Below are positions 11,473-24,624 of a DNA stretch of 28,084 nucleotides, piece after piece; position 1 is the first letter of the stretch, and each line of letters starts with the position of its first letter. The notes below the pieces were generated by a model, which had not been told where the DNA came from, searched no databases, and saw only the letters and a list, made by a program, of their open reading frames with translations. The stretch is from a virus. The position numbers were made by a program, and so were the translations under genes. Location: the IMG/VR virus record IMGVR_UViG_3300022602_003129, positions 1 to 28,084 of that record; one strand, given 5' to 3'.

Positions 11473-11589
11473 ATGACACAACAAATTATTGATATTGGTA
11501 TACAAGGTAATGACGGAACTGGCGACAGTATCCGTGAATCGTTTAATAAAGTTAATGCTAACTTTAACGAATTGTATGCTGTATTTGGA
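11473..11589 (+). repeat. Shared N-terminal module, copy 1
   Basis: [28 protein letters not shown] and ELY open the giant protein. The same module opens the genes at 24624 and 24910. It is probably a docking or trimerisation tag for a common virion site (inference). Confidence 0.8.
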
Positions 11590-14500
11590 GTTGGCGGATT
11601 TATTAAATTTGGCAACTTAGCAGATGCTCCAGGTACTACAGGATTTACAATTACTACTGCAAGTGCTAATGGCACACAGGCTACTTTGTATTTTACCAAT
11701 CCAAATCCAGGACTTGGGTTGCCTTATAACATTGGTCAAAATATTGTTATTACAGGTTGCGTTCCAACAGGATATAACGGAACTTATACAGTTGCGTCTG
11801 CTACAACTACTAGTGTAACATTCAATAGTACTACAACCGGAACGCTAACAACTAATGGCAAAATTGCTGGTACAAGTTATAGTGCTAACCAAATTATTAT
11901 GGCCAGCACAACTGGTAATAGTCTTACTGCTCGTAATCTTGTTGCTGGTAACGGTATTACTATTGATACTTCTAGCAATCAGCAAGTTAAAATTATCAGT
12001 ACTGCCGCAGGTCTTATTGCAGATCCTGCTCCAAGTATGGGTGCGCCAATCAATGCAAACTTGTTTACTATCGGTCGTTTAGCTGATCCAAGCGCGGCTT
12101 TAGTGGCAACATTCAATGCTGTTTATGCTAGTCAAGGTATTAGCACAACACTAGGGCAGTTGCCAGTTACAGTTAACTATGCTAATAATAATTACCTACA
12201 GACTATTAATGGTCAAATAGCTGGTGCATTACGTGTACGTGCAATGCCAACTACTGCACAAACAACAGATCCAGATTACAATGCTAGTTTGTCTGGTAAC
12301 TATGTAGCTACAGAAGCGGTACAGCGTCAACATGTTGTATTGCGTGACGGCGACTCAATGACTGGAGTATTAGAGCTAAGTGATCACCCAGGTAGCATGA
12401 GCGGATTTGGCATTAGAAACGGGTCAGATGACTTGCAGGCCGCAACAAAATTTTATGTTGATAACAATACTCATTATAGTAGTACAAATTTATATGTTAG
12501 CACAGGCGGTGATGACACACAAAAGAACACACCGTTAGGTCGTAATGGCCGTGCTCCTCAGTATGCTTACAAGACTATTGGTGCGGCACTATTGCAAGCA
12601 CAAAATATTATTAGTACAGCATTTACAGAACCTGGACCATATCGCCAAACTATTGCGTATACTATTGGCCCAACACAGTACAAGAGTCAAATTACTAGTG
12701 TAACATTTACTGGTGGCAATTCTGCACTGCAAGAATATTCAGATGCGGCTAGTTTGTTAGAATCAAACAAAACATTCATCCAAGCTGAGACTATTGCCTA
12801 TTTGAATCAAAAATATGTTAATAGTTTTACATTTGACCAAACTCGTTATACAAATATTTTTGAAAATATTATTAACGGTATTGGTTACGACCTTGCCTTA
12901 GGAACAAATTTTAACAGTACAACACAGGCTAGTATATTGTTCGACAGCTACAACAGTGATGTAAGTAGTGCTGTTGCTCAAATTACTACAGCTTTAAATT
13001 ATTTGCAATCCGAAGTCACTGCATATTCGTATAGTACAGCTAACTTACAAACCTATATAGGCAAAGTTATTAATGCTGTATGTTATGATTTAGAACTAGG
13101 TAGTAATTTCCAAAGTATTCAAGTTGCCTTGGCGTTCAAATATGCCAACACTGGATTGAGTACTAGTGCAACTCCTATTAATCAAGCAGTTACAGCTACA
13201 ACGGGGTTAGCTAGTTGTACAATCGGTTCTATTGTCGGAACAACTTTAACAGTAGCTGGTACAGTAACTGGTACATTTACTGTAGGTATGGTCATCACTG
13301 GTACTGGAGTTTCTGGTATTGTTACTATTACAGGATTTGGAACTGCTACTGGCGGCGTCGGTACATATACCATAAGCAATCCTGGAAGTGTAAGTGTAAC
13401 TTCTACTCAACAAAATCCAGTTACATTAACAGGTACAAGCAATAGAATTACAGTAGCAAGTACACTAGGCATGGTAGTTGGAAATCCTATCGTATTCAGT
13501 GGAACAAGTTTTGGTAATATTATTCCTGGATACACTTATTACATTATTAGTATTATTGACAGCGCAACTATTCAAGTTAGCAGTCAGCCTAATGGAACTG
13601 TATTAGGTCTAACAACTGCTACGGGTAATATGGAAGCTAATACTAGCGGCCCTAGCGAAATTGCTGGTGTATTATCTAATCTAGCATCAGTAATCAACTC
13701 AACTGCCACCGGTGCAATAGCCAGCACAACTATTCAAGCTAAGGTTACAAATATTATTAACAATATTAGTAATCAAATTGTAACTGGTATTGTGCCTACG
13801 CCTACATTCCCTGGAATTTCAGGAACTACTACCGCAGGTCAAACAAGTGCTGTAACTTTATTATTAGATAATATTCCGTTTATTCAAGCTGAAATTGTAG
13901 CTTATTTGCTAGCAAATTATCCTACACTAACTTATAATCAAGTAACTTGCCAACGAGATGTAAAATATATCATATGGGCATTGTGTTATGATATAATGTA
14001 TGGCGGTAATACACAAAGTGTTTATGCTGGCTTACAATACTGGATAAACAGCACTTATCAAATTCAAAGCTATGAGCAAGCTGGCACAGTATCTGCAATT
14101 GGTTATATTAATACTTTAGCACAAGCTATTATTAATAATAATGCTCCTGCTACTTTATATCAAACTGGTGTTATTCAATATGCAAACAGTACACTATCAG
14201 GTGGAAGTGTTGCAAGCACTAGCATTAGTACCAACGTTGGAACTATACAAGGAATTGTTAATAGCTCAAGTCAGCCAAGTCCGTCTGTCAGTTCTATAAC
14301 TGCAACTAGCGGAGTAAGTACATCGTTGACTACTGTGGCTAGTCAGATACAAGCATTGGCAACTACATTAGAGTCTGGTTCAGTTACGTATGTAAATAAC
14401 AATTATCCAATTATCAACAGTAGTATTCAACAATCTACTATTACTACGTTAATCAATACCATTTTTAATCTAATTAAAAATGGTATCAGTAGTCGTACTA

Positions 14501-23500: not shown

Positions 23501-24624
23501 ACACATATGGTGTAATTGGTATTACTTCTTCTGGAACAGGAAATAAGATTGTTAAAACCGACTCTAGCGGTAACATTTACGCTTCAACAGGTTTTTATGT
23601 TGCTGGTAATAAATTTGTAGGAAGTGTCGGTAGTACTGTAACTTACTATACACCGGGGCAATTTGCCGCAATAACTACAACTGATGTGAGCGGTAGTGCA
23701 ACTACAACAGTTAATGGCACATTAAGTGCTCCAGGAACACTTATTGCCACAACAATTGAAACTGGAGCAAGTGTTAGTACAACCGGTACTATTACTGGAC
23801 AATGGAGTTTAGGCAGCCTAAGTTCATTTGATGCTAGTGCTGGAACATTAAAATCAACTACATTAACTACAGGGGGTTCTGGAACAAACGGTACATTTAC
23901 CGGTTTGTGGACATTTAATCAAGCTACAACTTTCTCAGGACATATAACCGTCGAAGGTGTAACTAGTACAGGTGCAAGTGGTACTGGCAATATTATATTC
24001 TCGTCAAGTCCATCAATTACTAGCCCATCAATTAGTAATCCAACAATTACAGGTCATCCGACTATTGAAGGTGTAACTAGTACTGGTTCTACTGGTACTG
24101 GAAATATTGTATATGCTACAAGTCCAACTATTGGCAATCCAACATTTACTGGTACAGTATATACAACAAGTATCAGTACAGGTAGTCCATCAACTACTGG
24201 TACATATACTGGTAATTGGAGTGTTAATGGTGTATTTGCGGCAACCTACGCTGACTTGGCAGAGTACTATGAAGGCGATCAAGATTACGAACCAGGTACA
24301 GTATTGGTATTTGGCGGTGATAAAGAAGTTACAACAACTACCCAAATTAACGATACTCGTAGTGCTGGTGTAGTTACAACTAATCCAGCTTATGTTATGA
24401 ACCGTGAACAAACTGGTATTAAAGTTTGTATAGCACTAGCAGGTCGTGTACCAGTTAAAGTAGTTGGTCGTGTTAAGAAAGGTGATATGTTGACTACAAG
24501 TGCTACAGCTGGATACGCTGTTAAGGCACTAACACCAACATTGGGTTCTATCATTGGTAAGGCTTTAGAAGATAAAGATTACGGTGAGGCCGGAGTTATC
24601 CAAGTAGCTATAGGAAGAGTATAA
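11473..24624 (+). CDS. Giant modular fibre-like structural protein (4383 aa)
   Basis: One uninterrupted frame of 4383 residues, rich in Thr, Ser, Gly, Ile and Asn. Order of parts: an N-terminal module (residues 1-39, [19 protein letters not shown]); Ig-like blocks around [10 protein letters not shown]; a beta-helix entry ([22 protein letters not shown]); at least four helical repeats of the form FIQAE..AYL..Y..RD..YI..A..YD...G; a pectin-lyase-like stretch ([32 protein letters not shown]); a block with [34 protein letters not shown]; tandem EGVTSTG repeats; and a C-terminal domain from [12 protein letters not shown] to VIQVAIGRV. Similar blocks occur in large structural proteins I recall from marine T4-like phages. 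GGAG (11461-11464) precedes the ATG. Likely a long tail fibre or virion appendage; the exact place in the virion is unknown. Confidence 0.85.
11734..11865 (+). repeat. 44-residue Ig-like block, copy A
   Basis: Runs from GQNIVITG through [10 protein letters not shown] and TTTSVTF to NGKI. A second block of exactly the same length lies at 14950-15081, sharing PTGYNG, TTTSV and GKI at the same offsets. Confidence 0.75.
13858..14045 (+). repeat. Helical FIQAE-YD repeat inside the giant gene (clearest copy)
   Basis: [43 protein letters not shown]. Related copies lie near 12742-12930, 14547-14740, 15236-15420 and 17950-18150, all with an aromatic residue-x-x-A-E or A-T start, a conserved RD pair before YI or YV, and a YD or IDL turn before a Gly-rich end. 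These charged helical units differ from the surrounding Thr/Ser beta sequence. Confidence 0.7.
14950..15081 (+). repeat. 44-residue Ig-like block, copy B
   Basis: Runs from GSVITVQG through [10 protein letters not shown] and TTTSVSF to AGKI, in phase and length with copy A. Looser relatives occur near 20140 ([10 protein letters not shown]). Confidence 0.75.
23947..24160 (+). repeat. Tandem EGVTSTG fibre repeats
   Basis: Two units read [14 protein letters not shown] and [14 protein letters not shown], each followed by a SPSI or SPTI and Pro-rich stretch ([20 protein letters not shown]). This is a common tail-fibre shaft motif and sits just before the C-terminal domain. Confidence 0.75.
24239..24621 (+). 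other. C-terminal domain of the giant fibre protein
   Basis: About 128 residues beginning [13 protein letters not shown] and containing [45 protein letters not shown] and [10 protein letters not shown], ending VIQVAIGRV. This end domain recurs in phage structural proteins; it resembles regions with chaperone-like or self-cleaving activity (for example Peptidase_G2-type ends), but I cannot identify catalytic residues here. Confidence 0.6.

Follow-up and report, generated by a model that had tools for sequence, protein, structure and literature searches.

Where in the virion do the very large structural proteins of T4-like phages from aquatic habitats sit, and of what are they made? Their place is mostly unknown, and the question is raised by IMG/VR record IMGVR_UViG_3300022602_003129, a linear virus fragment of 28,084 bases that we analyzed as a whole (hereafter the window). 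Nearly half of it is taken up by a single open reading frame (ORF) with an ATG start, which spans 13,152 of the 28,084 bases (47%) and encodes 4383 amino acids (aa):

11473-24624, + strand: giant fibre gene, 4383 aa (full-length homologues; ratio of nonsynonymous to synonymous substitution rates, dN/dS)

Based on sequence comparisons, we propose that its product is likely a baseplate fibre of a T4-like myovirus, probably a trimer, with a plug, phycobiliprotein-like (PBP-like) domains, beta cassettes, a tip and a chaperone. The plug supplies a baseplate address for the protein, and the helical domains suggest that one domain is common to light-harvesting proteins of cells and the adsorption apparatus of phages. 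Taken by itself, the giant gene belongs to a known kind and is not the longest known, the P-RSM6 gene having 25,722 nucleotides (nt); it is the phycobiliprotein-like modules that appear to be new.

The frame is a real gene under purifying selection and is intact in independent assemblies. Among the loci and contigs used for comparison (L-numbers; homologue lengths counted stop-to-stop), L001 and L002 encode homologues of 4406 aa with 82% identity to the window protein over its whole length, and other intact full-length homologues measure 5037 (L004), 3934 (L005), 3936 (L006 and L007) and 3744 aa (L018). L008, which comes from another sample, is 100% identical to the window protein across aa 1-1175, and the whole-gene dN/dS against L001 is 0.13. 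Since intact homologues occur in other uncultivated viral genomes (UViGs) and dN/dS is this low, we exclude an assembly artefact, the danger named by an earlier annotation made from the letters of the window (the sequence-only reading), whose observation of one frame of more than 13 kb stands.

The protein contains a helical repeat, present in six copies and one split copy:

12745-13020, + strand: PBP-like copy 1, aa 425-516, no CxRD (hidden Markov model [HMM] match)
12991-13215, + strand: PBP-like copy 2, partial, overlapping copy 1, aa 507-581 (HMM match)
13849-14136, + strand: PBP-like copy 3, aa 793-888, CQRD at 826-829 (HMM match; PF00502 E 0.023)
14548-14832, + strand: PBP-like copy 4, aa 1026-1120, STRD at the CxRD site (HMM match)
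15241-15531, + strand: PBP-like copy 5, aa 1257-1353, CYRD at 1289-1292 (HMM match)
17293-17445, + strand: first half of the split PBP-like copy, aa 1941-1991 (profile match)
17668-17781, + strand: second half of the split PBP-like copy, aa 2066-2103 (profile match)
17950-18237, + strand: PBP-like copy, aa 2160-2255, SQRD at the CxRD site (HMM match)

The sequence-only reading had seen charged helical repeats here. Helical and repeated they are, but D/E/K/R/H make up 7.1% of the giant protein and 3-16% of 150-aa windows over the repeats, and the charge has to be dropped. Starting from a single copy, a profile search picked up 150 places in the loci compared, redundant ones included, and the repeat consensus contains KCQRDIGY...YDLLYGGN. 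First hints of kinship with phycobiliproteins were a weak Pfam Phycobilisome match (E 0.033), R-phycocyanin as the best PDB profile match (E 0.42) and a Foldseek search with a model of aa 745-1130, in which all 50 matches listed were phycobiliproteins ('bacterial fluorescent protein' being the name given to one).

Profiles built from many copies gave a much clearer signal. Profile A6 combines nine repeats of four cyanophage isolates and leaves out the window. When it was searched against the whole PDB, 59 of the best 60 among 131 matches at E≤10 were phycobiliprotein chains and the other a 'bacterial fluorescent protein', with a best E of 1.9e-5. A5 (42 repeats) matched 45 sequences, 43 of them phycobiliprotein chains, with one fluorescent protein and one unrelated protein, Crov588 (E 9e-5, no single stretch passing); its best E was 4.5e-5. 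Aligned by hhalign with ten cyanobacterial phycobiliproteins, A5 reached E 2.2e-7 and A6 E 1.3e-8. With 68 core repeats, the score was 38.9 compared to a mean of 10.4 in 200 column shuffles (standard deviation [SD] 2.1, maximum 18.0), and masking the motif on both sides left 32.4 (shuffles: mean 11.8, SD 2.2, maximum 20.9) or, in a second masked test, 25.4 (mean 10.7, SD 2.1, maximum 17.5), with the register unchanged each time. Positions N47, C82, R84, D85, R91, Y95 and G100 are those that are invariant in the ten phycobiliproteins and alignable with the consensus of the phage repeat, which keeps all but R91 and has Asp there (alignment read by eye). When each of the 42 repeats was searched against Pfam, PF00502 appeared for 8 of 42 (E≤10) and each of the other families for 1 of 42. 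On the structural side, a low-confidence model of the repeat overlays phycoerythrin, and VIA-align gave Z values as high as 14.7 (144 residues, root-mean-square deviation 2.9), all 50 of 50 rows being of the phycobiliprotein kind, for a model with a predicted local distance difference test (pLDDT) score of 51.

Several results weigh against this kinship. Single copies are weak, the best single-repeat PF00502 match having E = 2.9e-4; the first window copy scores 15.1 bits against PF00502, under the curated cut-off of 22.2; a genome-wide family search with PF00502 matched 0 of 5 related contigs; and the models of the two pieces have low confidence (pLDDT 51 and 41). A fold search with a second model found phycobiliproteins in its first rows only, mixed with ATP synthases. 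These weaknesses would fit a fold without common ancestry, the repeat being a common helical bundle of the globin-like type whose likeness to phycobiliproteins arose by convergence, and helical bundles do reach high structural scores by chance, VIA-align itself noting that Z near 13-14 can arise for them. We consider convergence unlikely nevertheless, as both PDB-wide profile searches return phycobiliproteins almost alone with no globin among the matches listed, the alignment spans the core from end to end, with N, C, R, D, Y and G retained at invariant positions, and with the motif masked the score is still 7-9 SD above the shuffles. We regard homology of the repeat to phycobiliproteins as well supported by the profile comparisons, and a phycobiliprotein fold as likely.

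The address of the protein is suggested by its N-terminus:

11473-11592, + strand: baseplate wedge plug of the T4 gp9/gp10 type, aa 1-40 (PF07880, PHROG 677, PDB)

Since the complete 4383-aa protein gave no Pfam match as a query, the N-terminal piece was searched alone. With a query of aa 1-60, aa 4-40 matched PF07880 (T4_gp9_10_N) at E 5.9e-8 and 33.4 bits (cut-off 25), a score that drops to 20.7 bits, under the cut-off, with a 340-aa query piece. The plug also matched PHROG 677, 'baseplate wedge tail fiber protein connector' (E 9.6e-12), and five PDB sequences, of gp10 or gp9 types only (E 1.8e-4 to 9e-3). Passages of PMC3004832 describe how the N-terminal domain of T4 gp9 binds gp7, how the long fibre attaches to gp9 and that the N-terminal part of gp10 is similar to gp9. 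Because the plug is of the gp9/gp10 type, and T4 gp9 and gp10 sit on the baseplate wedge, plug homology suggests that the giant protein is a baseplate fibre and not a neck whisker. The window protein shares with gp9 and gp10 their N-terminal plug of about 40 residues, whereas the rest of both is absent from it and it is 7-15 times longer; a relative, contig G001, has a separate plug-bearing protein of 293 aa, roughly gp9-sized.

The sequence-only reading had instead favored a long side fibre or whisker. The length of the protein would suit such a structure, and jumbo relatives have whiskers: CBB bears hair-like tail whiskers, whose gene is not identified in the passages of PMC5259590 that describe them. 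However, the plug points to the baseplate, and the cyanophage relatives of the repeat do as well, the repeat-carrying gene of P-HM1, P-HM2 and S-SCSM2R sitting between the baseplate wedge genes gp6 and gp8. A whisker or long side fibre is therefore improbable, while the broader claim of a large structural fibre of several segments is supported. The earlier list of domains had included neither plug nor chaperone, and had missed the kinship of the helical repeats with phycobiliproteins.

At the other end of the protein, a conserved domain follows a fast-changing one:

23353-24240, + strand: divergent region, proposed receptor-binding tip, aa 3961-4256 (identity to L001, dN/dS)
24241-24621, + strand: predicted self-cleaving chaperone of the Peptidase_G2 type, aa 4257-4383, with YADLAE at 4259-4264 (D4261, E4264) (hhalign)

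In a profile-profile comparison by hhalign, the C-end matched domains of the phi29 gp12 type (probability 95.7, E 8.5e-9), and YADLAE aligns with SDFAE of phi29 gp12, whose D692 and E695 we take to be the catalytic pair of self-cleavage. No row departs from the Asp and Glu in alignment A3 (12 of 12, jumbo phages of Pseudomonas and Agrobacterium among them) or in A4 (8 of 8). HMMER aligned the chaperone with the single phi29 sequence in two collinear pieces, and the last ~125 aa also match PHROGs without assigned function. On the other side of the balance, Pfam PF11962 (Peptidase_G2) gives E 0.0037 and 17.1 bits, under the cut-off of 25, which is why we write of a G2 type and not of a Pfam member, and hhalign against the single phi29 sequence returned a probability of 0.1. 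Searched against the PDB, the chaperone profile found nothing significant (best E 0.31, with a tailspike chaperone at 0.45), and phmmer with the C-end alone found antibody and cytochrome noise only. Altogether, the last ~125 residues match a self-cleaving chaperone of the phi29 gp12 type, including the Asp/Glu pair; the two are collinear, but the long insert between the two domain halves of gp12 is missing from the window protein. This predicted chaperone is the sole enzyme-like part found, so that of the 'enzymatic segments' expected by the sequence-only reading one survives and no depolymerase was found.

Compared to L001, aa 3961-4260 reach only 35-70% identity (in 60-aa steps), aa 4261-4383 reach 97-100%, and nearly all the rest 77-100%. 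Calculated in blocks of 300 aa, dN/dS rises to 0.36-0.38 in the final two, compared to 0.06-0.19 elsewhere. Since the fast-changing stretch precedes a conserved chaperone, as a tip with its folding aid would, aa 3961-4256 may be the host-binding tip. In the baseplate fibre that we favor, the plug would attach three chains to a wedge protein. The shaft would consist of PBP-fold domains, a fold that self-assembles in cellular phycobiliproteins, alternating with beta cassettes that may serve as spacers or bind surfaces weakly, and the tip (aa 3961-4256) would bind the host. The chaperone would drive trimer folding and then cut itself off before D4261.

The kinship with phycobiliproteins raises the question of whether the fibre carries a chromophore. 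CxRD is the bilin-attachment motif of phycobiliproteins, and a bilin bound covalently by CxRD copies could sense or absorb light and affect adsorption, in cyanophages first and in the window phage less. In nine cyanophage isolates, 35 copies have all five site columns (one gapped copy was dropped), and Cys is retained in 31/35, Arg in 23/35, Asp in 31/35 and the whole CxRD in 22/35, though Cys makes up only 0.3-0.7% of residues in the same proteins. In the window's family the motif is complete in 24/55 copies. P-HM2, which carries copies and also encodes bilin reductase and CpeT, reportedly adsorbs poorly in the dark, and P-SSP7 has 0 copies, a correlation between two phages that are unlike in every other respect. 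On the other hand, the phage consensus has Asp in place of the invariant R91; complete CxRD is found in only two window copies (826-829 and 1289-1292) and in 1/23 in ten other contigs; G001, the longest relative of the window (223,176 bases), yielded none of psbA, CpeT and bilin reductase when these were looked for; DSL-LC03 has CxRD in 3/3 copies, yet CpeT and bilin reductase were not found; and light-dependent adsorption has other possible, host-side causes. A bilin-bearing fibre is therefore very improbable, and we give slightly less credence still to the wider scheme in which cyanophage baseplate giants carry bilin-binding domains as the sensor behind light-dependent adsorption and the window represents a second, jumbo-like lineage with the site partly lost. 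Because only two window copies keep complete CxRD, the PBP-like domains of the window phage are most likely structural modules. They resemble phycocyanin and phycoerythrin in predicted fold, in profile similarity and, for some phage copies, in CxRD, but differ in being repeated inside a fibre, in the replaced R91 and, for most window copies, in the lack of Cys. Why some cyanophages adsorb only in light is an old question that the phycobiliprotein relationship makes testable. No account of a phycobiliprotein-like domain in virions turned up in the open-access papers searched. S-CREM2 encodes phycobilin lyases and has a giant long tail fibre that was found in its virions; the passages covered here mention no such domain (PMC10665884).

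Among isolated phages, the repeat is almost exclusively a cyanophage feature. The window query matched 17 phage records, all cyanophages, and a cyanophage query matched 350 of 50,697 at E≤1e-3, 349 of them cyanophages (276 Synechococcus phages, 59 'Cyanophage' and 14 Prochlorococcus phages, with 1 marine virus). The parts compared of Mosig, P-SSM2, S-CAM3 and S-SSM7 held 0 copies, and aa 1-576 of the window protein had zero matches among the phage records searched. The giant proteins of baseplate and fibres in T4-like cyanophages (P-HM2 gp7, 4454 aa; S-SCSM2R, 5172; S-PM2, 3779; P-RSM6, 8573) are likewise long and repeat-bearing but have no overall homology to the window protein; P-RSM6 (L074) has seven PBP-like copies in the covered part of its one annotated gene. 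The sequence-only reading had pointed to marine T4-like phages as known carriers of very large structural genes, and G001 does have a T4-type gp23, but this capsid protein is closest to those of jumbo T4-like phages and not of marine cyanophages (73% with Phosso, a Sinorhizobium phage, 70% with a jumbo phage of Vibrio, 68% with Rak2-like and PA5oct-like phages).

How does such a gene vary in size? Differences between homologues are mainly whole beta cassettes of ~75 residues, present or absent as units, a pattern that shows how giant structural genes grow:

11632-11871, + strand: beta cassette type B, aa 54-133 (absent in L005, L006, L018)
13195-13653, + strand: beta cassettes types A and C, aa 575-727 (absent in L018)
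14869-15081, + strand: beta cassette type B, aa 1133-1203 (missing in L005, L006; mostly missing in L018)
15580-15807, + strand: beta cassette, aa 1370-1445 (missing or mostly missing in L005, L006, L018)
16120-16344, + strand: beta cassette, aa 1550-1624 (absent in L005, L006, L018)
17446-17667, + strand: beta cassette type A inside the split PBP-like copy, aa 1992-2065 (empty site in L005, L006, L018)
19357-19575, + strand: beta cassette, aa 2629-2701 (absent in L005, L006)
20647-21147, + strand: beta cassettes (two type C matches), aa 3059-3225 (absent in L005, L006, L018)

In a six-protein alignment, seven window stretches of 71-80 aa, starting at aa 54, 1133, 1370, 1550, 1992, 2629 and 4151, are missing in at least one relative, and a further indel of 167 aa lies at aa 3059. 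Self-BLAST of the giant protein gave 0 pairs with composition correction and 156 without, and because the latter are inflated by Ser/Thr/Gly richness, cassettes were tested with three cassette-type profiles built only from proteins outside the giant-protein family (types A and C seeded from the neighboring ORF 25401; targets cut into 130-aa pieces; threshold E 1e-3). These gave 112 matches, before merging, in the six proteins vs 0 in shuffled pieces. Merged matches fell inside indels in 7/7 cases for the window, 12/12 for L004, 3/4 each for L005 and L006 and 4/5 for L018, and circular-shift P values for the mean cassette/indel overlap in these five were 0.002-0.026. Four of the seven 71-80-aa indels (1370, 1550, 2629 and 4151) had no cassette-profile match; the first three are weakly type A-like by BLAST, and 4151-4226 is fibre repeat.

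One cassette interrupts a helical domain that becomes continuous without it. With aa 1992-2065 present, the helical-repeat profile matches in two pieces (13.2 and 3.4 bits); left out, there is one continuous match of 30.8 bits, and a different cassette in its place gives 11.4 bits. Domain shuffling is known in tail fibres, as a passage of PMC10684548 describes. Of the Ig-like blocks of the sequence-only reading, the beta blocks exist as these cassettes, but their Ig nature is unproven, with no Pfam Ig family matched; its fibre repeats are present as Ser/Thr/Gly repeats near the C-end. A match of aa 2950-3069 to PHROG 460 'head closure' (E 3.7e-8) was taken as composition or cassette and not as function, since that stretch is a low-charge cassette region.

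Three further stretches are conserved:

16345-17292, + strand: well conserved block, aa 1625-1940, earlier read as pectin-lyase-like (conservation)
18493-19152, + strand: conserved tail-fibre block, aa 2341-2560 (PHROG 9851 tail fiber, E 1.1e-13)
22060-22632, + strand: conserved tail-fibre block, aa 3530-3720 (PHROG 9851, E 1.4e-31)

The pectin-lyase assignment was not borne out: aa 1500-1990 had no Pfam match at E≤1, nine aligned homologues of aa 1625-2640 matched no pectate-lyase family, the stretch had no PDB profile match, and its model (pLDDT 41) is too poor to judge the fold. The block at aa 2341-2560 also matches tail fibres of Pelagibacter phage Mosig and cyanophages, and that at aa 3530-3720 occurs in 129 phage records. 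The Mosig tail fibre (Mosig_00063) has both blocks in the same order, but 493 nt apart, compared to 1084 aa in the window protein.

Downstream of the giant gene lie three more genes:

24624-24887, + strand: 87-aa protein with the same plug (PHROG 677 E 3e-9)
24910-25386, + strand: 158-aa protein with the same plug (PHROG 677 E 1.1e-8)
25401-28082, + strand: Mtd_N tail-fibre protein, running off the record (Pfam PF18454 E 1.8e-13; carries cassettes A and C)

The plug protein directly downstream has 87 aa in the window vs 915-927 aa in G001, and the bodies are very different. G001 also has a second giant gene (L045 1-10733), a frame of at least 3287 aa adjoining a 288-aa gp9-like protein. For S-PM2 (L049 8824-20163, NC_006820), RefSeq puts 16 tRNA genes inside the giant coding sequence, and since ARAGORN finds none there and nine before it, the RefSeq tRNA coordinates look misplaced.

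Upstream, QueD-like, UV endonuclease UvdE, superoxide dismutase (SOD) and iron-sulfur (Fe-S) assembly genes directly precede the giant gene (7809-11469), and the order QueD, UvdE, SOD, Fe-S protein, giant gene is common to the window and G001 (L044). The SOD (9775-10818; Pfam SOD N and C) has a C-terminal extension of ~150 aa that looks SGNH-hydrolase-like by eye, and the G001 counterpart has 186 aa without it. Farther upstream (526-4963), three radical SAM genes stand in a row, two with SPASM and one with a weak B12-binding match (Pfam); three radical SAM genes also lie close to the G2-type protein of Agrobacterium jumbo phage Atu_ph07.

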